A stretch of DNA of 64,000 nucleotides. Origin: Nitrospira sp. (GTDB lineage Bacteria; Nitrospirota; Nitrospiria; Nitrospirales; Nitrospiraceae). Position 1 is the stretch's first letter; the number at the start of each line of letters is the position of its first letter. Position numbers and translations under genes: made by a program. The notes beneath the pieces were generated by a model. The model searched no databases, was not told the DNA's origin, and was given only the letters and a program-made list of their open reading frames with translations. The DNA lies in assembly GCA_029194675.1 (NCBI GenBank), contig JARFXP010000003.1:1-64000 (forward strand). Reading direction: 5' to 3'. Of the stretch, positions 33,252 through 50,860 are shown piece after piece.

Positions 33252-36200
33252 ATGCAACCCATCGTCCGCGTATTCGTCAGCTCCACCTGGCTCGATCTCC
33301 AGCCGGAACGTCTCGCCGTGGAGAAGGCGCTGCAACGCATGCGCCAGACTAAGCTGAACGGGATGGAGTACTTCGGCAGCCGCGATGAGACCACCAGACA
33401 GGTTTCGTTGGATGAGGTGGACCGGAGCGATGTCTACGTCGGCATCATCGGAGGGCGGTATGGATCAGGCATCACGGAGGACGAGTATCGAAGGGCGTCG
33501 GAGAAGAAGCTACCTCGGTTCATCTATTTCAAGGATGAACAACATATTCGCGCAGACGGCCGAGATCCCGAAGATAAGAAACAAACTCGGCTGGCGACCT
33601 GGAAAGAAGATTTACGGAAGGCCCATGCACTCGGCACAGGCCCGTTCACTAGCCCTGACGATCTCGCGGCCCGAGTCACGGCGGACCTGAGCAATTGGCT
33701 CTTGGATCAGTGGGGACCACAGCTATACCTCCATGGAGTCGGCGCACTGCCATACGACTATGCGGGGCGAATTGAAAACTTCCTGATCGAATACCTTGGC
33801 TCAGCCACTACGCCTGTCCCCTTCGGCGGACGAGAAAAAGACCTCAAGGCCTTGGATGCCTGGTTGGACGATGCAACCGCGCCTCCATACCTTTTGATGG
33901 CGGCGCCCGCCGGCCGCGGCAAGTCGGCCCTCCTGGTCCGGTGGACGCGGCAGTTGCTGGCGCGTGCACATATCAGCCTGGTCTTCGTCCCTATCAGCAT
34001 CCGGTTCAGGACGAATCTGTCCGGCGTCACCTTCGCAGCTCTGGCCGCCCGGTTAGCCACGCTGCACGGGGAAACCATTCCGAACACCCCGTCCACTTCG
34101 GTAGAGGTCTGGCGCGGGCTGGTCACAGACTATCTGCGGCGTCCGCTGCCCAATGGGGAAACCCTGGTTGTCGTGCTGGATGGATTGGATGAAGCGGCGG
34201 ACTGGGAGCCGGGACCGGATCTCTTTCCGCTCAATCCACCTGATCATGTACGAGTGGTGGTCTCGGCTCGGTACCGGGCGGGCGATGAAGACGCTCGGGG
34301 TTGGCTCCGTCAGCTGGAGTGGAAACAAGCACACCTCGCGAGATCGTATGACCTGGACCTCCTCACGAGAGAAGGTATGGTTCGGGCGCTGGAAAGTATG
34401 GGATGCCCACTCGACCAACTTAGCGCGAAGGTCGATATCGTCTCCGAGTTGTATCGGCTCACCGAGGGTGATCCGCTCATGGTACGGTTGTACGTTGAGG
34501 ACCTGTGGTCGCACAAAGAACGAGTCGCAACACTCAAGCCGGAAGACCTGGGGGCATTGAAGCCTGGGTTGGAAGGATATTTTAATCGCTGGTGGGACGA
34601 CCAACGCACACTCTGGGACAAAGAATCGCCGCTCAAAGAACGGAACGTCCAAGCACTGATGAACGTGTTGGCATGCAGCTTGGGACCGCTGAATAAGGGA
34701 GACGTGCTGCATCTGACCAAACTATCTTCGTGGGATCTTGAGGAAGCATTGAGGCCCCTGAACCGTTTCATTACTGGAGACGGCAAAACCAACGGGTATG
34801 CCTTCAGTCATCCCCGCCTGGGATACTACTTCAAAGACAAACTGTCCGCACGAGAGCAGCAGGACTGGGCGGAAAAGTTTCTCGCCTGGGGCCGAGACAC
34901 AGTTCGGGGCTCGGAGACGGGTACGCTCGCGCCGGGCAAGGCACCCCCCTACATCGTGCAGTACTACGGCGCTCATCTTGAGCAGGCCCATGCCTCAGCA
35001 GAAATGCTGCTCACGCTTGTCTGTCATGGATGGAGCAAAGTCTGGGAGGCCTTGGAGGGAAGCTTCACCGGATTCCTGAACGATGTGGAGCGGGCCTGGA
35101 AGGCCGCAGAGCGTGAAAACGAACAGGCCATTAAAAAGGGCAACACAGCTCCCCACATTGGGGCCGAAATCCGCTGCGCGCTGGTTCGAGCCAGCATCAA
35201 TAGCTTGGCTGCGAAGATCCCGGTCACGTTGATCGTGCAACTGGTGAAACACCAGAAGTGGACAGTCCGGCAAGGTATGTCCTATGTGCGGCAGATTCCT
35301 GAAACGAGAAAGCGTGCTGAGGCGTTTGTACAGCTGATTACTGAACTCGAAATGCCAGACGACCTACGAGACCAGATGTTAATGGAGGCATTGGCCGCCG
35401 CACGAAAGCTACCCTCCGCACGAGGGCTTCCCGAAAACGAGGATCGCGCAGAGAAACTTGCAGAACTGATCCCTCATCTGCCTGAGAAGAATCGTGCGCT
35501 GGTCCTCCATGAGGCGCTAGCGGAAACACGTCAGCTTGAGGACATTGGGGTACGTGCTTTGGTGGTGGCGAAACTGGCCCCCCATCTACCTGAGAAGGAC
35601 CGCACGAAGATACTCCGGAAGGCTCTTTCTGGAGCACGACTACTGGCAGACAATGGGCGCCGTGCTGAGGTGCTGGCGAAACTGGCCCAACATCTGCCTG
35701 AGAAGGATCGCACGCTGGTCCTCCGGGAGGCCCTCGCAGCAGCGCGTCAGATGAAGGACGATGAGCCACATTTTTTTGTGCTGCCGGAGCTGGCGCCACA
35801 TCTGCCCCAGGATGTGCTCGCAGCAGCACGTCAGGTGAAGGACGACGTACAACGTGCTTGGGTGCTGGCGCTGTTGGTTCCACATCTGCCTGAGAAGGAT
35901 CGCGCGCCGGTCCTACAGGAGGCCCTCGCAGCGGCGCGGCTGCTGGAGGACGATTATCACCGTCCTTCGGTGCTGACGGAGCTGGTTCCACATCTGCCCG
36001 AGAAGGATCGCACGCTTGTCCTACAGGAGACCCTCGCAGCAGCGCGGCTGGTGGGGACCTATATGTTGCGTGTTTACTCCCTTACGAAACTGGTTCCCCA
36101 CCTGCCTGAGAAGGATCGAACGCTTGTCCTCCTGGAAGCCCTCACGACAATACGTCAGTTGAGGGATAATGGACGACCACGCGCTGAAGTATTGACGGCG

Positions 36201-37271
36201 CTGGCCCCTCATATATCTGGAAAGGATCGCAATAAAATACTTCAGGAAGCTCTCTCAGCGGCGCGGCTGGAGTGGGACGACTGGCAACGTGCTGAGCTGC
36301 TAACGAAGCTAGTTCCACATCTACCTGAGAAAGACCGCCCGCCAGTTATCCAGGAGACCCTCACTGCAGCGCGTCACGTGAAGCATGCTAGAACGCGTGC
36401 TTGGGCGCTGACGGCGCTGGCCCCTCATCTGCCTGAGAAGGACTGCTCGAAGATATTCCGGGAGGCCCTCGCAGCCGCACGGCTGTTGGAAGACGATTGG
36501 GAACGCACTGGCGCGCTGACGGAACTAGCCCCGCATCTACCTGAGAAAGACCGCCTGAAGTCACTTCAGGAGGCCCTCGCAGCCGCGCGGCTGCTGAAAA
36601 AGGATTGGCAGCGTGCTGACGTGCTGACGGCGCTGACCCCATACTTGCCTGAGAAGAATCGCAAGAAGATACTCCAGGAGGCCCTCACAGCCGCACGGTT
36701 GCTGGAGGAGGATTGGCAGCGTGCTGACGCGCTGACGGCGCTGGCCCCTCATCTCCGCCTGAAGATTCTGCGGGAAGCCCTCGCAGCGACGCGGCAGCTG
36801 CAGGACGATGAGCACCGTGCTGAGGCGCTGATGATATTGGCCTCAGATCTGCCTGAAAGGGATCGCAAGAAGATACTCCAGGAGGCCCTCGTAGCGGCGC
36901 GGCTGGTGGAGGACGATTGGCGACGTGCTTACGCGTTAACGGAGTTGGCCTCACACCTGCCTGAGAAGGATCGCAAGAAGATACTCCGGGAAGCCTTCCG
37001 GGAGCCCCTCCCAGCGGCGTGGCTGCTGGAGCTCCATGGAGAACGTACTTGGATGCTAACGGCACTGGCTCCACATTTGGCAGCCCTGGACCAACCAATA
37101 ATCTTTTCTGTCTGGCGTACAACATTCCGAGATCACTTCCCAAAATGCACGAGAGCCGATCTTATGAGCGATTTGGCAGCCTTGGTCCCCATTATCAATG
37201 CCCTCGGCGGTTGTAGAGCCCTAGAGACGACGGCACAAGACATCCGGGATGTCGCCATCTGGTGGCCATGA
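33252..37271 (+). CDS. DUF4062-NACHT/STAND NTPase with helical repeats (NLR-like)
   Basis: A 1339-residue protein. The N-terminal DUF4062 domain (about 1-110) has VRVFVSSTWLDLQPERLAVE and DVYVGIIGGRYG, and often acts as an effector or signalling module. A STAND/NACHT ATPase follows, with Walker A APAGRGKS (218-225) and Walker B VVVLDGLDEAAD (about 305-316). A middle helical part leads to about 15 tandem 36-residue repeats from about residue 730 to 1275, consensus PHLPEKDRxxILxEALAAARLLxDDxxRAxxLTxLA. The closing part has a Cys/Trp-containing tail. The layout (effector, NTPase, superhelical sensor) is that of bacterial NLR-like phage sensors. It is a single gene between tRNA-Val and trmFO, on the other strand from tRNA-Val. 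Defence is inferred; the trigger is unknown. Confidence 0.85.
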   Translation: MQPIVRVFVSSTWLDLQPERLAVEKALQRMRQTKLNGMEYFGSRDETTRQVSLDEVDRSDVYVGIIGGRYGSGITEDEYRRASEKKLPRFIYFKDEQHIRADGRDPEDKKQTRLATWKEDLRKAHALGTGPFTSPDDLAARVTADLSNWLLDQWGPQLYLHGVGALPYDYAGRIENFLIEYLGSATTPVPFGGREKDLKALDAWLDDATAPPYLLMAAPAGRGKSALLVRWTRQLLARAHISLVFVPISIRFRTNLSGVTFAALAARLATLHGETIPNTPSTSVEVWRGLVTDYLRRPLPNGETLVVVLDGLDEAADWEPGPDLFPLNPPDHVRVVVSARYRAGDEDARGWLRQLEWKQAHLARSYDLDLLTREGMVRALESMGCPLDQLSAKVDIVSELYRLTEGDPLMVRLYVEDLWSHKERVATLKPEDLGALKPGLEGYFNRWWDDQRTLWDKESPLKERNVQALMNVLACSLGPLNKGDVLHLTKLSSWDLEEALRPLNRFITGDGKTNGYAFSHPRLGYYFKDKLSAREQQDWAEKFLAWGRDTVRGSETGTLAPGKAPPYIVQYYGAHLEQAHASAEMLLTLVCHGWSKVWEALEGSFTGFLNDVERAWKAAERENEQAIKKGNTAPHIGAEIRCALVRASINSLAAKIPVTLIVQLVKHQKWTVRQGMSYVRQIPETRKRAEAFVQLITELEMPDDLRDQMLMEALAAARKLPSARGLPENEDRAEKLAELIPHLPEKNRALVLHEALAETRQLEDIGVRALVVAKLAPHLPEKDRTKILRKALSGARLLADNGRRAEVLAKLAQHLPEKDRTLVLREALAAARQMKDDEPHFFVLPELAPHLPQDVLAAARQVKDDVQRAWVLALLVPHLPEKDRAPVLQEALAAARLLEDDYHRPSVLTELVPHLPEKDRTLVLQETLAAARLVGTYMLRVYSLTKLVPHLPEKDRTLVLLEALTTIRQLRDNGRPRAEVLTALAPHISGKDRNKILQEALSAARLEWDDWQRAELLTKLVPHLPEKDRPPVIQETLTAARHVKHARTRAWALTALAPHLPEKDCSKIFREALAAARLLEDDWERTGALTELAPHLPEKDRLKSLQEALAAARLLKKDWQRADVLTALTPYLPEKNRKKILQEALTAARLLEEDWQRADALTALAPHLRLKILREALAATRQLQDDEHRAEALMILASDLPERDRKKILQEALVAARLVEDDWRRAYALTELASHLPEKDRKKILREAFREPLPAAWLLELHGERTWMLTALAPHLAALDQPIIFSVWRTTFRDHFPKCTRADLMSDLAALVPIINALGGCRALETTAQDIRDVAIWWP
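35440..37080 (+). repeat. Tandem 108-bp repeats coding for 36-residue helical units
   Basis: About 15 in-frame units. Most are 36 codons; some are shortened (near 35800 and 36750, lacking the EKDR part) and one is lengthened near 37000. Neighbouring units at 36430-36720 are nearly alike, which suggests recent duplication. Each unit can form two helices, giving an alpha solenoid likely to bind the ligand. Confidence 0.85.
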
Positions 37272-42529: not shown

Positions 42530-43396
42530 GTGCCCGCTGATCGCAACCGCCTCAAAGACGACCTGCATTACCTGGTGGGAGAGCGGCATCCCCTGTCCTC
42601 TCCAGTCCGCTTACAGCAGACAGAAGTCTATCTGTCCCGCCGGTTCTCGGAGGCCGGGCTCGCCGTCACCGCGCATGAATTCGAGGCATTGGGCAAGACC
42701 TATCGTAATGTGGTTGGCACGATGCTCCCGACATCCGCACAAGGTCAATCTGCACCAGCGCTGATCCTCGCCGCACACTTCGATACAGTTCAAGGGTCTC
42801 CCGGCGCCGATGATAATGCTAGTGCACTCGTGGTGCTCCTTCAGGTCGCTCGCCGGGTCCGAGCCATGAAATTGGCTAGAACGGTCCGTTTCATCGCCTT
42901 CAACTTGGAAGAAGAGAACTTGCTTGGCAGCTCCGCCTATACCGCGCTTTTGAGAAAGAATCGTGAAGCCATCCACGGAGCGATCGTACTGGAATGTGTC
43001 GGCTATGCGAGCCATCAAGAAGGCTCGCAGAAGATTCCTCCCGGTGTCCCAATCGCTGTTCCCACAATTGGAGATTTTCTTGCCGTGATCGGCAACGAGC
43101 GGTCGCAAGCCTTGACCGGCTCCGTCGCCCAGGCCATGAAATCGCATCTCCCGATAGTTCCACTGGTTGTGCCGGGTAACGGCGAAAAACTTCCCGACAC
43201 CAGACGCAGCGACCACACCTCGTTCTGGGAACAGGGATTTCCCGCTGTCATGCTCACCGACACCGCCAACTTCCGCAATCCCCACTACCATCGACCCACC
43301 GACACCCTCGACACGTTGAATCTGGACTTCATCGCCTCAGTAGCCGAAGGGGTCACAGCAGCCGTCATTGCCTTGGCCGGTCAACCGACTGCGTAG
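42530..43396 (+). CDS. M28-family zinc peptidase
   Basis: A 288-residue metallopeptidase starting with GTG. Zinc ligands are visible as His and Asp in LAAHFDTV and GADDNASALVVLL, Glu residues in FNLEEENLLGS, and a late His in NPHYHRPTDTLDTLN. It belongs to the M28 aminopeptidase group; the lack of a signal peptide suggests a cytoplasmic location. The likely substrate is a peptide or amino-acyl compound. It is the last gene of the operon, 24 bases after argB. A relic of a related gene lies 440 bases downstream. Confidence 0.88.
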   Translation: MPADRNRLKDDLHYLVGERHPLSSPVRLQQTEVYLSRRFSEAGLAVTAHEFEALGKTYRNVVGTMLPTSAQGQSAPALILAAHFDTVQGSPGADDNASALVVLLQVARRVRAMKLARTVRFIAFNLEEENLLGSSAYTALLRKNREAIHGAIVLECVGYASHQEGSQKIPPGVPIAVPTIGDFLAVIGNERSQALTGSVAQAMKSHLPIVPLVVPGNGEKLPDTRRSDHTSFWEQGFPAVMLTDTANFRNPHYHRPTDTLDTLNLDFIASVAEGVTAAVIALAGQPTA

Positions 43397-43447
43397 CTTT
43401 GGTTGACCGATTTGGGTAGACTCCCCGGCCATACTACGAGGAATGGA

Positions 43448-43708
43448 ATGAGACGACCATCTGTCATCAAGCCGTTCATTTACTCTCAGGAACTCGCCTA
43501 TCGCTTCAATGAAGATGAAGCCGTGTGGCGACGTTACATGCAAAAGCATGCTCTGCGCCGGTTGCGCGGTTCGTGGAGTCCATTTTCCGAGGAAGTTCTT
43601 GATCGCCTCGACTGGCTCGAAGCGCAACGAGAGTGCCGCGAGAGATGGTATGTTGGAAAGTCAATCGTGGAAACGGTCCAATCAAACCATTCGCAAACGC
43701 CTTCCTGA
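43448..43708 (+). CDS. Small hypothetical protein
   Basis: An 86-residue frame from ATG 43448 (MRRPSVIKPFIYSQELAYRF), with a Trp/Arg-rich middle. A second frame, 43650-43865 (starting MLESQSWKRS and including RKRLPEIDKTLLEQDTALVD), overlaps its end and also looks protein-like, so the two may be parts of one frameshifted gene. No family is recognised. They occupy the space between the intact M28 gene and the M28 relic. Confidence 0.35.
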   Translation: MRRPSVIKPFIYSQELAYRFNEDEAVWRRYMQKHALRRLRGSWSPFSEEVLDRLDWLEAQRECRERWYVGKSIVETVQSNHSQTPS

Positions 43709-43838
43709 GATTGACAAGACCTTGCTCGAGCAGGATACCGCCTTGGTCGACCTGTACGAGAAATTGCTCCCGCTCCTGCAACCACCTCTCGACACACCCA
43801 AGCGCCGGATCGGGTTTCAGTCGAAAGGAAAGCGTGAG

Positions 43839-43968
43839 GGCGACCGACACAGCCCACTTTCATGATCCTCATCATCATTAGCCCACCGATACCATTGACA
43901 CGTTGAACCTGGAACTCATAGCCGCCGTCTCCGATGCAGTCACGACCACAGCCAGCCTCGGGAAATGA
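43839..43968 (+). pseudogene. Relic of an M28 peptidase 3' end
   Basis: One frame reads TDTAHFHDPHHH, then TAG, then PTDTIDTLNLELIAAVSDAV, and stops at 43966-43968. This aligns with TDTANFRNPHYHRPTDTLDTLN and its continuation in the intact peptidase, with the TAG where the intact gene has Arg. The DNA has diverged clearly, so it is an old paralog and not a recent copy. Confidence 0.8.
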
Positions 43969-43988
43969 GCCAAAAACTCCTTTAGATA

Positions 43989-46900
43989 TCATTCGTCAAG
44001 AATGTCTCTACTCGACTCTCTCTCGGCATCCCGCTCGTATGTCTCAGCTAAGCCGCGGATTGTGTCAGCAACTCGCTGAAACCCATTGTCTGACAGTGCT
44101 TTGGCTTTTTGACGATAATCTTCCGCAATTTGCTTCTCTTCTTCTCCATGAGAGAAGCCGTAAACTCCCCGTTTGTTAAATAGGCCTGTTGTTAATGCTC
44201 GGCGCATTTCTGGTGCGTCTCTTGAGTCTAGAGCCGCCGCGATTGATCTGTGAATCCACAGACCTCCTGGGTCTTGTGGCGCATGCGCAAGCGCTTGCCC
44301 TAATTGAGACATGGCGACCCCAAAATGTCCTGACTCTCTGCAACGTTTCTTCACTTCGTCCAACCAGGTTCTAAATCGGTCACCATTGAAAGCCCCATCC
44401 AGTTGAGTACCCGGAAGGATGCGCCAACCGTGCAGCAATGAATATGCATTCCGGGCTATTTGTTTCTGGGCATCGCTGACTTCTGTTTTAGATTCTTCAG
44501 TCTCCTTATCTGAACGGAACACGACTGCAAGTACTTCGCAGAAGAATTCTGGCGATGTCGCCAGCTTTTGCTCGAGAACCTTTGCCTCACCGCCATGTAG
44601 CCGATTTAGTAACGGCAGATAGTGCCATTCAATGTTGAATAGATCATCGGAATCAGCAGGTGCGTTCTTTTGTAGCCATTTGATCACTTCCACCGTATGG
44701 TGCTGGTCGAGTTGTTTCTGTTGCTCTTCTGTACTTAGAGCGCCCAGCAGCGCCGATGAGGCGAGCGGCATTGGGATGGGCACTTTCTTGTGAGCTAGAA
44801 CGTAAAGGCAATTCACAGCGGTACCCGGTTGCCCGTTTGAGGTCAACTTCTCAGCAGCATACACGAGGCCGCCAGCCTCCATACCCCACGGAATAAACCG
44901 AACCCGCTTCCAGTATTTGTCGGCCTTGGTAGTAAGGATTCGCTCTACACGATTCCAAGTCTCCCGTTCAGAGGGAACTAGTAATAGGAATGCCAAGAGC
45001 TGACCCTCGTGCCAGCCCTTCGCCAGTTGCTGATCAACCCATACCCATTTCCGGGTAAAGACCCGTCGCCATACGAAACTCCCGAAAAAAAGACTTATCT
45101 CTCTATCACTCTTGTCGAGAAATTCCGGCAACAGAAAGGCGTCAATGCTTGGATCGTCTACCGCACCCAATGCTTCGCCGACCTTACGTGGTGATTCCAC
45201 GTCCTTTGCAAATCGTACGATCCCTTCCATGCCATTAGTCTTCAGGATTGCCGTAAGGACCTGTCGACGAATCCCATCCAATCTTCGCTGCTGTTCCTCG
45301 TAGCCGCCTGCTTCCTCGAAGAGCTCAAAGTCTCGTTCAGTGAACAGTCGTCGATTCGCTAGCTCAACTGATGCAGGGGCTAACATCGCAGTCACCTCTT
45401 CAATCTTAGCTAGCCTCTCAGCCGCCATAGCCCACTGAGCGTCCGAAAATCTCTGGTGTTTCAATGCGAGGTCCTTTAAGGCCTCCCAAAGGCGTACACG
45501 TTTCTCTTCGGCAAGGGCCGTAACAGGCGGTGACGCGAGGTGGGCCAATATCTGCGAATGTGCCGGTTCCGGTAGGTCTGCTAGACGGTCTACTAACTCG
45601 ACCAGCTTATTTAAATCGAGTGCAGCAACCCGCGTGCAGATTTCGGCATAAACTTGAACTTGTGCCCAATATTGCGGGACTGTAACTGTCTCCTTCCATC
45701 CGTTCGGGATAAATGATCGCCAAACTGGCTTGCGTGTGCCGGATGTACTGCCGTGGGAACTAGGCAGAAGACTGAGCAATAGTTTCCAAGCTACATCTGG
45801 GTGTTCCCGAAGCAGTGACTCCAACGCATGTTTTCGTGTCGTCAAATCAGCAAGAGTCTGCGAAATCCATGGAAGAAAGATATCCGTCAGAGAGTTGAGA
45901 GGTCGATTCGCCCACGTTCCGCCAGGATCTATGGACGCTAAATCTCCGAGCAAGAGAGTTGCCCGTCCCAAGTAATCAGGATGCCACGCCAGGGTCTCCA
46001 ATGCCCACAGGACGCCAGTAATGTAATTCCACCCTCCTATTCCGCCGGTGCCCTCCTGCCGAAACACCTCAATGAAGGGGCTCGTGGATGGATCGGCCAC
46101 TGCCGCTTCGACAGCGTCGAGAAATTCGTCGGGCGCAGCTTCTGCGAGTAGTGGCATCTCGTTATTAAGGCTTGCCCATGTCTCCCAATTCGCCTGGTAT
46201 AACAACTTCCGCACCAGAAGTTTTGCAGTTCCTTCAGCCTGGCCATGAGAAGTGCTAGTCAGAGCATTGCCTCTTGATCCTAGTAAGGCTAGCGATTCGG
46301 TTACCCCTTCTCGAATAGAGCGTGAGTGCAAGAGTGACTTTCCATGAATGGAGGCCGCATAGCGCTCACCCTTCGGCAGCTCGAATTGCGGATCCTTCTC
46401 CCCCAATATCTGAAGTGCCATCTTTTGAAAATTTCTTAGATCTTCATCGTTAATACGCGGACCGAGGGCGGCCCATGCCTCTCCGCGGGAGATCACCTTC
46501 CACGATTCATTTCGTTGGATAAGGGGAGTGTCCGCGCGCAATGTTTCAACTCGGGCCGCCTCGGCCCACTCCCCGTAGGATTTTCCCAGCACAATCTCCA
46601 TTGCTTCCCTGTCTGCGCCACGATCACCTTTCCATTTTCCAGTTAGAGATGCTTGAGCCAATATCCGTGCATTCTCCCAGGTAGCGTAAGGTGGCAACTC
46701 ACCCAGTCCGCGAAAAAAACGCTTCAATGCAGCCAGGCTCTGCGCCCCCACACTCGCCAATTCCGCAGCCCGCTCCATTGAAAAGCCACTGTCGAGGAGG
46801 GTCTTCTCAAGTAGGCTATGAGAGGGGCTCATTATCGGGACAAGCTTTTCGGCCCCGCGCGCCCATGCGCCGGAAACCGAAAAGATAATGCCGTGACCTC

Positions 46901-47795
46901 GGGCACGCGCCGCAACATGTAGCTGCTCATACGAATCTGCAAAATCCAGTCTCGGACTTGCTACAAGTGTGTGAGAAAACCGCAAATTGGAAAAGGTGTG
47001 CCAGGCGTCAGGGTCAGAAATGAATAAGCACTGGTTGCTAAATGCACGACGCGTGGTTTCGTCCAGTGACTCGAGAAATGCAGCGACAAAGTCCTCTGCG
47101 TCGTTTTCGCTCTCTATGGCGAGAATCAACTGCTGGATCTCGCGGCGGAATAGACGGTCTAGCTGCTGGCAGGCATTTTCTCTTCCCGCGAGGAAAACCT
47201 TAGGTGGCAAGGGAGGATCGCCCTGGCTCACCATCTGTGCAAGGTGTGCCCAATGCTCAGCTGGGGTTTGGAATCCGGTAAGGGCTTTTATAAGGCCAAT
47301 GCGTTGAAGCAGCCACTTTCCGATAGCTGGAAATTCACGAAGCCAATCGCAGAGCTGAACTCCATCAATTACTTTAATTTCCTTCCAACCATCCCCTTGC
47401 CGTGCCTGAATCCATGCTGATTGGGAAGGTTGGTCCCAATCCCTACTTCTGGGTGTTACAAAAACAAACGTTGCCTCCGCACGTACTGATTGAGGGGTTC
47501 CGTCAGTCCGTTTTTTGTAATCTTCCGTTGCTTTGCTCTGAGCATTCCCGCTACGACCGATCTCCACAAAACTCGTTTTTGGGGGAACGAACTGGCGAAA
47601 GCCAACCTCCGTTTGAACGAGGCCATCAAAGCCCGGCAATCCAATCGAATCGCCGTATGGAATTCTGCAATGAGTCAAGTCCGGCACGGACAAATTTACG
47701 AGCAGAGCGACTAGTTCCGGTATAACAGGCTCACTGTCCCGTCGATCGGCGAAGTCTTCTAGCTCGCTCGGCGTGACTACCTTCGTGTGTTCCAT
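43989..47795 (-). CDS. Large PD-(D/E)XK-type protein, defence candidate
   Basis: A 1268-residue protein. The N-terminal 100 residues show a restriction-nuclease-like pattern: GFDG with D57, FVEIG with E78, and the K88/K94 region SKATEDYKKRT, a form seen in nuclease domains of several phage-defence proteins. At about 205-310 a segment starts VFLAGRENACQQLDRLF and looks like a STAND/AAA-type domain, but the expected P-loop position reads AIESENDAEDF, so nucleotide binding is doubtful. The remaining 900 residues are mostly alpha-helical with many Trp and Leu. It is alone on its strand, between the M28 relic and the small-gene array. The layout recalls single-gene PD-(D/E)XK defence proteins such as Upx; no family is claimed. 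Confidence 0.75.
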   Translation of the reverse strand: MEHTKVVTPSELEDFADRRDSEPVIPELVALLVNLSVPDLTHCRIPYGDSIGLPGFDGLVQTEVGFRQFVPPKTSFVEIGRSGNAQSKATEDYKKRTDGTPQSVRAEATFVFVTPRSRDWDQPSQSAWIQARQGDGWKEIKVIDGVQLCDWLREFPAIGKWLLQRIGLIKALTGFQTPAEHWAHLAQMVSQGDPPLPPKVFLAGRENACQQLDRLFRREIQQLILAIESENDAEDFVAAFLESLDETTRRAFSNQCLFISDPDAWHTFSNLRFSHTLVASPRLDFADSYEQLHVAARARGHGIIFSVSGAWARGAEKLVPIMSPSHSLLEKTLLDSGFSMERAAELASVGAQSLAALKRFFRGLGELPPYATWENARILAQASLTGKWKGDRGADREAMEIVLGKSYGEWAEAARVETLRADTPLIQRNESWKVISRGEAWAALGPRINDEDLRNFQKMALQILGEKDPQFELPKGERYAASIHGKSLLHSRSIREGVTESLALLGSRGNALTSTSHGQAEGTAKLLVRKLLYQANWETWASLNNEMPLLAEAAPDEFLDAVEAAVADPSTSPFIEVFRQEGTGGIGGWNYITGVLWALETLAWHPDYLGRATLLLGDLASIDPGGTWANRPLNSLTDIFLPWISQTLADLTTRKHALESLLREHPDVAWKLLLSLLPSSHGSTSGTRKPVWRSFIPNGWKETVTVPQYWAQVQVYAEICTRVAALDLNKLVELVDRLADLPEPAHSQILAHLASPPVTALAEEKRVRLWEALKDLALKHQRFSDAQWAMAAERLAKIEEVTAMLAPASVELANRRLFTERDFELFEEAGGYEEQQRRLDGIRRQVLTAILKTNGMEGIVRFAKDVESPRKVGEALGAVDDPSIDAFLLPEFLDKSDREISLFFGSFVWRRVFTRKWVWVDQQLAKGWHEGQLLAFLLLVPSERETWNRVERILTTKADKYWKRVRFIPWGMEAGGLVYAAEKLTSNGQPGTAVNCLYVLAHKKVPIPMPLASSALLGALSTEEQQKQLDQHHTVEVIKWLQKNAPADSDDLFNIEWHYLPLLNRLHGGEAKVLEQKLATSPEFFCEVLAVVFRSDKETEESKTEVSDAQKQIARNAYSLLHGWRILPGTQLDGAFNGDRFRTWLDEVKKRCRESGHFGVAMSQLGQALAHAPQDPGGLWIHRSIAAALDSRDAPEMRRALTTGLFNKRGVYGFSHGEEEKQIAEDYRQKAKALSDNGFQRVADTIRGLAETYERDAERESSRDILDE

Positions 47796-48015
47796 GCCAG
47801 CCTCGCAGTTCGCGGGTAAAGGTTTGCCTGACTATCAAGCAGTTTACATTGGGGCTGCGGGATTCTTATCAAACCTTGTCGGCTTGTCAATGCTAGCCAC
47901 AGTAATGATTGGACGGAGAGCACATAAGATATCCGGTTTTCGCTGCGGACAAGAGTGGTTGACCTTTGACGATCCAGACCGGTGAATGTAAAAGAGGCCA
48001 TCTCCCGCTTCAACT

Positions 48016-48066
48016 GAATGTTTGTTCCAGTCCATGCTTCACCTCGCGTTCCGGGGCGACTTATGA
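48016..48066 (+). pseudogene. HsdS C-terminal tail, copy 1
   Basis: The frame reads ECLFQSMLHLAFRGDL and stops with TGA at 48064-48066. The LFxSxxHRAFxGEL form is the usual end of type I restriction specificity subunits (HsdS). The rest of hsdS is absent. The stop overlaps an ATG (48063) that would start the next small gene. Confidence 0.6.
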
Positions 48067-48175
48067 AGATCGTCCGTGTGTCGTGGTAAAGTACCTTTCA
48101 TCCGATGGGTTCGTGGTCACGGCATACCTGACCGACCAACTCAAAACGGGAGAGACGATATGGCCGAAAAAGTAA
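48062..48175 (+). pseudogene. Remnant of a small toxin-like gene
   Basis: The frame reads YEDRPCVVVKYLSSDGFVVT, then AYLTDQLKTGETIWPKK and a stop at 48173-48175. It resembles the C-terminal half of small RelE/DUF4258-like proteins encoded before DUF2283 genes. Its beginning is missing or shifted: the ATG at 48063, overlapping the HsdS-tail stop, is out of frame. The end overlaps the DUF2283 start by 16 bases. Confidence 0.45.
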
Positions 48176-48372
48176 AAGTCTGGTTTGATCCAGACGCAGA
48201 CTATCTTGAGGTCCAGTTCCGCGAGGCACCGGGGTTCATGCGCCCGACCACCCACGATGCTGTGATGGAACGTGTGGACGATCAGGGGCATGTTCTAGGA
48301 TTCAGCGTGCTTGGTGTCAGCCGCTTTCGGAAAGACCGCCCACTCGAAGCTGAACTTGTGGCTGGAGATTGA
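48160..48372 (+). CDS. DUF2283 protein, copy 1
   Basis: A 70-residue protein with the DUF2283 pattern VKVWFDPDADYLEVQF and a hydrophobic VLGFSVLGVS segment. DUF2283 proteins commonly follow small toxin-like genes and probably act as antitoxins or partners. Its own partner upstream is a remnant. A second DUF2283 gene lies at 48768-48992. Confidence 0.8.
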   Translation: MAEKVKVWFDPDADYLEVQFREAPGFMRPTTHDAVMERVDDQGHVLGFSVLGVSRFRKDRPLEAELVAGD

Positions 48373-48433
48373 TTGGGCGTATCTTCGTGACTTCATCCTT
48401 CCTTCTTCATCACCACGTCACCGCCGCCAGAGT

Positions 48434-48535
48434 CCCGAGATTCGGTCGATGGAATCCCAGCAAACCGCCTCCCGCCGCCAGCAGGATGACTTGTTCCACT
48501 CGATGCTCCACCGCGCATTCCAGAGAGAACTGTGA
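48434..48535 (+). pseudogene. HsdS C-terminal tail, copy 2
   Basis: The frame reads EIRSMESQQTASRRQQDDLF and continues HSMLHRAFQREL to TGA 48533-48535. It is the C-terminal coiled end of an HsdS subunit without the rest. The stop overlaps the GTG of the next gene (GTGA), so the tail might provide translational coupling. Confidence 0.7.
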
Positions 48536-48771
48536 AAACTACTCGCTATTTTGACGAGCAGGTAATGCGAAAGCGCCCGTACATCAAGCGAGAGTGGTGC
48601 GAACAGGCCCTACGCCATCCTCTCCGCCGTGAAGTGCAGTCTAATGGGCGCATCCGACACTGGGTTCTTATTCCTGAACTTGGACGGTACTTGCGCGTGG
48701 TGACCTTGGAGGATAGTATGACGGTGCATAACGCGTTTCTGGATCGCAATTTCAAAGAGGCAGGATCGTGA
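48532..48771 (+). CDS. Small toxin-like protein paired with DUF2283
   Basis: A 79-residue basic protein (KKR-rich YIKREWCEQALRHPLRREVQ, then GRIRHWVLIPELGRYLRVVT and HNAFLDRNFK) of a type found directly before DUF2283 genes; possibly a RelE/DUF4258-like fold. It begins with GTG overlapping the stop of HsdS tail copy 2 and overlaps the next gene by four bases, which indicates coupled translation. The activity is not known. Confidence 0.65.
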   Translation: MKTTRYFDEQVMRKRPYIKREWCEQALRHPLRREVQSNGRIRHWVLIPELGRYLRVVTLEDSMTVHNAFLDRNFKEAGS

Positions 48772-48992
48772 AGTTTCACTACTATCCTGAAACAGACTCC
48801 CTCTATATCGATCTGTCAGATAAGGTCAGCGTCGATTCCCGAGAAGCAGCACCGGGAGTGGTGTTAGATTTCGATGCCGAAGGACATTTGGTCGGGATTG
48901 ATATCGACCATGCCAGCCAGATTATCGACCTCTCTCGTCTTGAGGCAGAAGCCTTGCCGATTACGACGCTTTCTCTCTCTCAGAAGAGTTAG
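48768..48992 (+). CDS. DUF2283 protein, copy 2
   Basis: A 74-residue protein starting with GTG that overlaps the previous stop (GTGA). The DUF2283 signature is FHYYPETDSLYIDLSDK ... GVVLDFDAEGHLVGIDIDHAS. It is the probable antitoxin or partner of the gene before it. Confidence 0.85.
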   Translation: MKFHYYPETDSLYIDLSDKVSVDSREAAPGVVLDFDAEGHLVGIDIDHASQIIDLSRLEAEALPITTLSLSQKS

Positions 48993-49016
48993 CCAAGACG
49001 ACGGAGAAGAAAATCA

Positions 49017-49215
49017 TGACCACTCAGAGCAAGTTTCCTCAGGCTGGGACGAAGCACGCGTTCGTCGAGTACTGACTCACTACGAACAGCAGACGGAGGA
49101 AGAGGCGGTTGCCGAGGACGAAGCTGTGGCCGAAGACAAAACCCAGACGGTTATGGAAATCCCCACCGAGTTAGTACCCGCTGTCCGTCAGTTGATCGCG
49201 AAACGGCAACGATAG
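49017..49215 (+). pseudogene. Small acidic protein gene with a frameshift
   Basis: ATG 49017 gives MTTQSKFPQ but soon leaves the coding frame. The family-like sequence WDEARVRRVLTHYEQQTEEE, then MEIPTELVPAVRQLIAKRQR, runs in another frame to 49215. A one-base change near 49046-49050 would restore a 65-residue protein. Proteins of this kind often accompany small toxin genes. Confidence 0.6.
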
Positions 49216-49239
49216 ATTGGTCAATGCTTGTTGCCGTCC

Positions 49240-49343
49240 GCGTCGCTAGGCCTCTCGCGGTGGAAAGTCGGCAAGCCGCCTCCCGCCACCGACTGCATGA
49301 ACTCTTTCATCTCCTTCTCCACCGGGCGCTTCAAGGAGACTAT
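49240..49343 (+). pseudogene. HsdS C-terminal tail, copy 3 (diverged)
   Basis: One frame reads VESRQAASRHRLHELFHLLL and then HRALQGDY, matching the other tails at most conserved positions. There is no stop at the expected place. The GGAGAC that encodes its GD residues lies just before the ATG of the DUF6155 gene at 49342, so tail DNA now serves as that gene's ribosome binding site. Confidence 0.6.
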
Positions 49344-49908
49344 GCCAAGCGAAAAGACACCCGCCGGCTGGTCGGCGATTCGTCGGCATCTGAGCGCACA
49401 GTCGAAGGCAGCCCTGTTGGCGCTGGTCAAAGATCTCTACGACGCATCCTCCAGCAACCGCAATTTTCTGCACGCCCGGGTCCAGGTCGAGGCCGGCGAC
49501 GGGACGGCCGTCGAGAAGTACCGGCGCACCATCATCGAGCAGTTCTATCCCCAACGAGGATTTGGGAAACTCAAGCTGGCTGAGGCGCGCAAAGCCATCC
49601 GGGATTACCGCAGGGCCACGGGTGACTTGACGGGCACGATCGATCTGATGCTGACCTACGTTGAGAACGGCACAAGGTTTACATGCGATTTCGGGGACAT
49701 CAACGAGGCGTACTACAACAGCCTTGAATCCGTCTTGCGCGAGATGACACAGCTTTTACGGAAGGAACATTCTTCGGTGTATCCGCAGTTCCGGGAGCGG
49801 ATTCAGGGGTTGGAAACTCACGCCGACCGCATCGGTTGGGGGTATGGCGATGCTCTTCGGGACCATGTCCGCTTGCTCGAAACGGAGCTGGCAGGCAAGC
49901 GCAAGTGA
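49342..49908 (+). CDS. DUF6155-like protein
   Basis: A 188-residue protein when started at ATG 49342 with AAGGAG just before it. Features: LSAQSKAALLALVKDLYDAS, RNFLHARVQVE and YFP-like YPQRGFGKLKLAEARKAIRDY, which fit the DUF6155 group of small helical proteins. A longer frame from 49228 would only read the HsdS-tail DNA in a wrong frame. The role is unknown. It sits inside the HsdS-tail array. Confidence 0.65.
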   Translation: MPSEKTPAGWSAIRRHLSAQSKAALLALVKDLYDASSSNRNFLHARVQVEAGDGTAVEKYRRTIIEQFYPQRGFGKLKLAEARKAIRDYRRATGDLTGTIDLMLTYVENGTRFTCDFGDINEAYYNSLESVLREMTQLLRKEHSSVYPQFRERIQGLETHADRIGWGYGDALRDHVRLLETELAGKRK

Positions 49909-49938
49909 TCAACCTTGGCAAACAGGAATCTGCTGTCC

Positions 49939-50043
49939 GCCACCACCGAGATTCGGGCCATGGAATCCCAGCAAAACACCTCTCGCCGGCGGCGAGACGA
50001 CCTCTTTCAGTCCATGCTCCACCGTGCGTTCGACGACGAATGA
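49939..50043 (+). pseudogene. HsdS C-terminal tail, copy 4
   Basis: The frame reads ATTEIRAMESQQNTSRRRRD, then DLFQSMLHRAFDDE and TGA at 50041-50043. It is the closest relative of copy 2 (shared EIR-MESQQ, SRR, DDLF-SMLHRAF). It follows DUF6155 in the same frame after its stop. The gene that should overlap its stop is missing (ATG 50040 meets a stop after five codons). Confidence 0.7.
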
Positions 50044-50164
50044 CAGCCGTTGCCTAAGCCGATCCTGGCCTCATCCGTTCACCAAATCGTGCTGTTCATG
50101 AATCATGACCGATGAGAAGCTTGCATCGATTTCATGCACGGTTTTGTGACATAAGTGAGCGGCC

Positions 50165-50860
50165 ATGGGGAACCGCCTCTCAGGCTCAACTCGGCAAGCT
50201 ATCGGCGACGTATTTGATCGTCTCGATTACAAACGGCTCGAGTCCGTCTATTGTTATGAAGGGGGCGATAAGTTTTGGGTTAGAAAGCGGGCACCCTGTC
50301 GGCGACTGGGCACCAAGGTAGCCGAAGCCCTCATAGAGAAGTTACCGCCAGGAGGGCGCAGTCTGTATGTGGGCGCCGGTGTGACGGAGCTGCCGGCATT
50401 ACTAGCGGAAGCGCTCGACCTTCAGCGCCAAGTTGAGCCCTATAATCTCCGGAGAACGGAGGTGGCGGTACTCAATCGAGCCACCCGAACCCTACCTGTA
50501 CAGTTCAGGGCTCAGGATGCCTCTCTGGCAACTGGTCTCTTCGATCATCTCTGGATGGTCAGTGTGCTGAACGATCCGGAACGGTTTCCGCACCTGTCGC
50601 CGTTATCGTATGGACGAGCCAATCCGGTCACGTTTGATCCGACACGATTCCAGAAGGAACGGCGGCTTGTCCAATCCATCGTGGACCGTTGCATGCCCAA
50701 ATTGAATGTGCCCGGTCTGGTGACGACGTCAACTGAGGAAGTAGTATGGATTGCAGACTGGTGTCACCGACTCAAGATTCCGTATCGCGTGGAGCGGAGG
50801 CAATATCCCACGGCGCTCGTCGGCGATCCGATCTGCTTTATCAAGGTTGGTAAGGAATGA
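50165..50860 (+). CDS. Hypothetical protein with methyltransferase-like fold
   Basis: A 231-residue protein. The segment GRSLYVGAGVTELPALLAEA resembles motif I of SAM-dependent methyltransferases (hydrophobic strand, GxGxx), and a later DHLWMVSVLNDP segment could be the motif IV strand. No characteristic active-site motif is present, so an enzyme role is uncertain. It has no signal peptide. It probably belongs to the core genome rather than the array. Confidence 0.55.
   Translation: MGNRLSGSTRQAIGDVFDRLDYKRLESVYCYEGGDKFWVRKRAPCRRLGTKVAEALIEKLPPGGRSLYVGAGVTELPALLAEALDLQRQVEPYNLRRTEVAVLNRATRTLPVQFRAQDASLATGLFDHLWMVSVLNDPERFPHLSPLSYGRANPVTFDPTRFQKERRLVQSIVDRCMPKLNVPGLVTTSTEEVVWIADWCHRLKIPYRVERRQYPTALVGDPICFIKVGKE

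Follow-up and report, generated by a model that had tools for sequence, protein, structure and literature searches.

The gene at positions 43989-47795 (minus strand) of a 64,000-nucleotide stretch of Nitrospira sp. DNA (assembly GCA_029194675.1, contig JARFXP010000003.1, positions 1 to 64,000; hereafter, the window) encodes a 1268-residue protein that we regard, with a probability of roughly 0.6, as an immune receptor of the Avs/PD-lambda-4 type that is mobile, encoded by a single gene, and activated independently of nucleotide. The protein combines an N-terminal nuclease, a STAND/AAA-like domain that lacks its P-loop, and a long helical C-terminal module (C-module), laid out as follows:

43989..47795, minus strand: single gene for the nuclease/inactive-STAND/helical-sensor protein (open reading frame, orthologs at 84-85%, phrog_18693)
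47295..47795, minus strand: PD-(D/E)XK nuclease domain, residues 1-167 (model, PDB match, invariant triad)
47625-47627, 47562-47564 and 47532-47534, minus strand: invariant nuclease residues D57, E78 and K88, respectively (24/24 homologs)
46701..47219, minus strand: inactive STAND/AAA-like domain, residues 193-365 (model, AAA+/STAND matches, colinearity with PD-lambda-4_A)
47067..47132, minus strand: former Walker A site, residues 222-243, QLILAIESENDAEDFVAAFLES (family comparison)
43989..46673, minus strand: C-terminal helical module, putative sensor, residues 375-1268 (model; common to other architectures)

The role of the protein is probably anti-phage, and its action can be pictured as a short series of events. 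(i) Recognition: the C-module would bind a component of the invader, probably a phage protein. (ii) Transmission: binding would release or assemble the PD-(D/E)XK nuclease (D57/E78/K88), with the middle STAND/AAA-like domain serving as a scaffold, switch or transmitter that neither binds nor hydrolyzes ATP in the usual way, so that activation would be driven by the ligand rather than by an ATP cycle. (iii) Cleavage: the nuclease would cut DNA, halting the infection or the cell.

The open reading frame runs from an ATG at 47795 to 43989, and two other Nitrospira hold orthologs with 84-85% identity, the closest loci being Nitrospira metagenome-assembled genomes. The ratio of nonsynonymous to synonymous substitution rates (dN/dS) over the whole gene is 0.15 and 0.14 against these two orthologs, and the gene is thus under purifying selection, which bears out the single 1268-residue gene called in the original prediction. 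Its GC content at third codon positions is 0.51, versus 0.63-0.74 in four nearby genes, as expected for an acquired gene. The protein had no match above threshold among Pfam, NCBIfam and PADLOC models or PDB sequences; a TRI4_N match (E=0.016) fell short of the cutoff and was set aside. In a search for a full-length match to a characterized family, the only family found was phrog_18693 of the PHROGs hidden Markov models, which aligns with residues 5-1263 of 1268 (E=2.1e-155) and is annotated ‘unknown function’.

The N-terminal domain is a nuclease of the PD-(D/E)XK type. All of 24 diverse full-length homologs keep D57, G58, E78, K88, D144, and W151. The pattern GFDG...VEIG...KATEDYKKR, from which a nuclease had been proposed with E78 and K94 as key residues, is present, and E78 is indeed invariant, but residue 94 varies among the same homologs, and the conserved lysine is K88 (24/24). 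In the structural model (predicted local distance difference test score, pLDDT, mostly 60-85 across residues 57-160), the elements follow the order helix, D57 strand, E78 strand, K88 helix, and strand, which fits a PD-(D/E)XK core with the lysine shifted onto a predicted helix. The top PDB structural match for residues 5-167 is the Avs4 nuclease (8dgf_B, residues 2-175; Z=9.1, root-mean-square deviation 4.0, 142 aligned), followed by MspJI (Z=7.5) and, lower, Cap4 (Z about 5).

The middle domain is where the family departs from its kin. At the level of sequence profiles, the closest kin found for the window protein is PD-lambda-4_A: an alignment of the window family with 11 PD-lambda-4_A-like proteins, i.e., relatives from Nitrospirota identified via the PADLOC model, one of which matches PD-Lambda-4_A at 3e-114, is full-length and colinear (hhalign probability 99.7, E=6e-26, 1097 columns). 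At the P-loop position, all 11 of these proteins carry GxxxxGK[ST], whereas none of 27 full-length members of the window family does. Absence of the motif in one protein says little because it is rare by chance (148 of 5000 shuffled window proteins, about 1 in 34), but its absence from this position in 27 of 27 members, with a conserved replacement, hA-[DE]-[ST]-x-[DE]-E-A-h-A-F, is informative. The Walker-B-like strand has no conserved acidic pair in the family alignment. The NTPase-like part also has the lowest dN/dS in the protein (0.08-0.12), and together with the replacement motif, this looks like an old, selected loss of the P-loop, not decay. The STAND-like segment, described at first as having no visible P-loop, is thus, judged by the family alignment, a consistently inactivated STAND/AAA-like domain rather than one that is merely hard to see. 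Its assignment as STAND rests more on the comparison with PD-lambda-4_A than on the model, which shows alternating strands and helices over residues 193-313 at low confidence (pLDDT about 30-65) and resembles AAA+/STAND cores such as TRIP13, ORC, RFC, and the ZAR1 resistosome (Z 5-6).

The same receptor could still use ATP, binding the nucleotide via non-canonical residues so that the domain remains a nucleotide-controlled switch. Such a switch would leave what is seen here: the domain is retained, its substitute motif is conserved, and no part of the protein is under stronger purifying selection. We nevertheless consider it unlikely, given that every one of the 27 members has lost the lysine and glycines of Walker A, that the Walker-B-like strand keeps no conserved acidic pair in the alignment, and that sister proteins with the same C-module do without the domain altogether.

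Several points weigh against a nucleotide-independent receptor of the Avs/PD-lambda-4 type. The NTPase-like region is poorly predicted, and PDB matches at Z 5-6 are within the range of unrelated models; loss of Walker A may be compatible with ATP binding via other residues. The PADLOC PD-Lambda-4_A model does not match the window protein up to E=1, and it matches 6 of 16 relatives weakly (best 9.5e-5). Lastly, the frequency of defence genes among the plasmid neighbours described below is an annotation-based reading that lacks a formal control.

The C-module spans ~890 residues, and its last 769 are modeled as an all-helical solenoid of ~40 helices (mean pLDDT 81), in keeping with the 900 residues of helical sequence noticed originally. 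HEAT/ARM-like matches of the module do not exceed the helical baseline; for instance, kinship with importin and PP2A was set aside since Z values of up to 10.8 are usual for helical repeats.

The same C-module recurs with other N-terminal ends (hhalign E=3e-166). In one architecture, it follows a Cap4-like region of about 290 residues in a protein with no P-loop anywhere, found in Shewanella, in a Nitrospira beside type I restriction-modification (R-M) genes, and in prophage-like contigs and chromosomes of the E. coli type. The label Cap4-like is a putative one, given by the motif TDDLIV...GQIKHS alone, and Pfam and PDB profiles gave no confirmation; PDB profile searches with A2, A3, A4, and A11 returned chance-level matches only. 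In the other, the C-module has no effector of its own and stands directly downstream of a separate GapS6a (HetE-N) gene. The pair was seen in every E. coli genome that carries this GapS6a (7 of 7), in Buttiauxella, and in one viral contig, and it lies within a P2-like prophage in the two E. coli genomes examined for this. The pairs of GapS6a with a large protein other than GapS6b are located as follows:

L023:9675-12793
L026
L012:9561-12655
L032:7555-10688

We rejected the identification of the C-module with GapS6b, as it has no NF047936 match and an hhalign probability of 0.1. More distant GapS6a genes precede true GapS6b, so that the large partner in GAPS6-like systems comes in no fewer than two unrelated kinds, although the pairing of GapS6a with the C-module may already be described in the GAPS6 literature.

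In a quick tree of the C-module (Shimodaira–Hasegawa-like approximate likelihood-ratio test support only), the window clade is sister to a clade of the Cap4-like and HetE-N versions, both within the nuclease/inactive-STAND group, and two changes are enough to account for the three architectures. This is most naturally read as a sensor module that exchanges effectors, with the NTPase first inactivated and later lost. Taken further, a receptor lineage may have shed its ATPase stepwise and kept its sensor, from an intact P-loop (PD-lambda-4_A), to a pseudo-P-loop (the window family), to a deleted NTPase with a Cap4-like nuclease, to a sensor with a separate GapS6a (HetE-N), giving an NLR/Avs-like receptor activated without nucleotide; we advance this complete series tentatively, at slightly less than even odds.

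The family is widespread yet uncharacterized, with a conserved dead P-loop. Matches by tblastn were found in 22 plasmid records, 18 of which cover at least 80% of the query at 25-47% identity, and they span Alpha-, Beta-, and Gammaproteobacteria, Bacteroidota, and Actinobacteria; a nuclease version from Shewanella baltica is 47% identical. Among 395 Nitrospirota genomes, full-length copies occur in about a dozen and the C-module only in a few more; short A1-profile matches, present in most of these genomes, are mostly a fused helix-turn-helix (HTH) alone and do not represent the family. Some copies of the family are broken, as is often seen for accessory genes. Scans of viral contigs (n=4) yielded few relatives, and a contig search with the single window sequence as the query returned two orthologs only. 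GiPD474 of Salmonella was rejected as a relative, since it is a ParA-like ATPase and has a Walker A motif.

On plasmids, the neighbours of the family include AbiE, SIR2, RES-Xre, type I R-M, SieB, and Abi or DUF4238 genes; a single DUF4238 protein protects against T7 (PMC9122126). The original prediction of a new or poorly described single-gene defence protein is supported: the protein is undescribed in Pfam, NCBIfam, and PADLOC, and the linkage to defence that was sought among its homologs was found in the cargo of the hotspot, in the neighbours on plasmids, in prophages, and in the kinship with PD-lambda-4_A at the profile level.

Many homologs reside on plasmids and inside R-M islands, and the nuclease also resembles MspJI, a modification-dependent restriction enzyme, as would suit a restriction-like nuclease directed at plasmids or DNA (type IV-like or for plasmid exclusion). 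The target of its helical arm would then be DNA, or a factor bound to DNA, instead of a phage protein. The N-terminal HTH of many homologs points the same way: HTH_3 was found in 8 of 16 relatives, and a fused Xre/HigA-type HTH is seen in many members (e.g., L011, L017, L038, L042), owing to which members of ~1300 residues are labeled ‘HigA antitoxin’ or ‘HTH regulator’ by annotation pipelines. This HTH, however, is of a type that suggests autoregulation, and it is absent from the window protein. The closest structural match of the nuclease is Avs4, not MspJI, and the homologous PD-lambda-4_A stems from a selection with phages, in which every candidate system lowered the plating of the selecting phage, although the main text of that study does not mention PD-lambda-4 by name (PMC9519451). 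A nuclease of this kind is therefore distinctly unlikely in our view.

Some plasmid copies adjoin ParAB or ParB, and only a few percent of Nitrospirota genomes hold a full-length copy, which would also suit a regulator or maintenance protein of mobile elements with no part in defence. Effector swapping, an invariant nuclease triad, pairing with GapS6a, and a location in a defence hotspot are not expected of such a protein, and we judge this explanation very improbable.

The genomic site itself supports the immune receptor reading. Other Nitrospira share a conserved backbone of argB, M20 peptidase, a conserved reading frame (at 50165 in the window), gamma carbonic anhydrase, and rimO, and comparison of 13 Nitrospira genomes shows an interval between the second and third of these genes that ranges from 0 to about 6 kb and is empty in two genomes (G011, G024). 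Elsewhere, it holds a type III R-M system (G018), DruA+HerA+NurA (G027), a CAP12-TIR-like gene (G021), or a DNA methylase (G010); in G015, an ortholog of the window gene occupies the same site, where the contig ends. This interval is a defence hotspot, with the following features in the window:

43397..50164, no strand: insertion hotspot, from the M20-peptidase gene to the conserved reading frame at 50165 (comparison of 13 Nitrospira genomes)
48435..48529, plus strand: HsdS C-terminal-like remnant, a recombination scar (direct repeats at 48025-48051, 49246-49340, and 49946-50031)

The repeated remnants end in ...RRRLDDLFQSMLHRAFQGEL and read like the C-termini of type I specificity subunits. 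The same HsdS-like tail lies in the hotspots of G017, G018, and G027 (loci L079, L082, and L084 were noted likewise), and the remnants may act as recombination seeds. At the edge of the insertion, 57 bases (43887-43943) partially copy, at 75%, the end of the M20 peptidase gene on its 3' side (43300-43356), from which they lie 587 bases away; together, the partial copy and the HsdS-like remnants mark recombination at the hotspot. The layout at 48076-48992, where two DUF2283 genes flank a small unannotated reading frame (48532-48771), is suggestive of a toxin-antitoxin-like cassette. Thus, the small toxin-like genes and restriction-gene fragments reported around the window gene are present, as DUF2283 genes and HsdS-like remnants (about 48.0-50.0 kb). 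Outside the hotspot, 33252-37271 encodes an NLR-like conflict protein of 1339 residues with DUF4062 and AAA_16; its P-loop is intact (APAGRGKS), and it contains numerous helical repeats that are nearly identical (LVPHLPEKDR...EALAAARLL).

In bacteria, plants, and animals alike, STAND receptors are viewed as machines switched by ATP. A conserved dead P-loop, together with sister proteins that lack the domain and keep the sensor, forms a naturally occurring gradation in which the need for the ATPase can be examined, and the window protein, if it works as proposed, could show that such sensors function without ATP. The E. coli prophage version of the C-module makes this accessible in laboratory strains. 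One sensor module also unexpectedly connects PD-λ-4, the unnamed phrog_18693, and GAPS6.

Among known systems, PD-lambda-4_A (PADLOC PDLC03991; Vassallo et al. 2022) shares with the window protein its length and the order of nuclease, NTPase, and long helical C-terminal half. It differs in an intact P-loop (e.g., GEPGIGKT, 11/11 versus 0/27 in the window family) and in the nuclease motif, DGGIDA...QxK versus GWDG...ExG...K. The PADLOC ‘A’ name implies a B component, and no PADLOC match was found among the scanned small neighbours of the window gene. Avs4 (AVAST type 4) has the most similar nuclease fold in the PDB and the same nuclease-STAND-helical repeat plan, but the window protein has no working P-loop and is shorter (1268 versus 1534 residues in 8dgf_B), and homology to Avs4 was not detectable by sequence search of the PDB. 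The C-terminal repeats of Avs4/AVAST proteins bind portal or terminase; the C-module is a predicted helical solenoid. GAPS6 (GapS6a HetE-N with GapS6b) is linked through GapS6a, whose gene immediately precedes the C-module in the P2-like prophages of E. coli, in Buttiauxella, and in a viral contig; it differs in that the C-module is not GapS6b and that the scanned neighbours of the window gene include no GapS6a (NF047935, NCBIfam). A precedent for the principle comes from BREX, whose proteins BrxB, BrxF, and PglW carry inactive STAND domains, with the STAND fold kept and the Walker motifs lost, and whose PglW also carries a NERD nuclease in the same protein (PMC12839542). BREX, however, is a multi-gene system with fast-evolving STAND domains that lack the C-terminal bundle, unlike the substitute motif of the window family, which is conserved across phyla. 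In the literature, we found no precedent for an inactive STAND domain in a protein of the nuclease/STAND/helical plan. The full-length relative phrog_18693 has no mechanism attached. Thus, the domain plan and the idea of inactive STAND domains were already known, whereas the family, with its conserved dead P-loop, is uncharacterized, and the link between PD-lambda-4, phrog_18693, and GapS6a is unexpected. Failure of the P-loop test keeps the window protein out of Avs and PD-lambda-4_A, and it is not assigned to GAPS6 either, but it may work like them.

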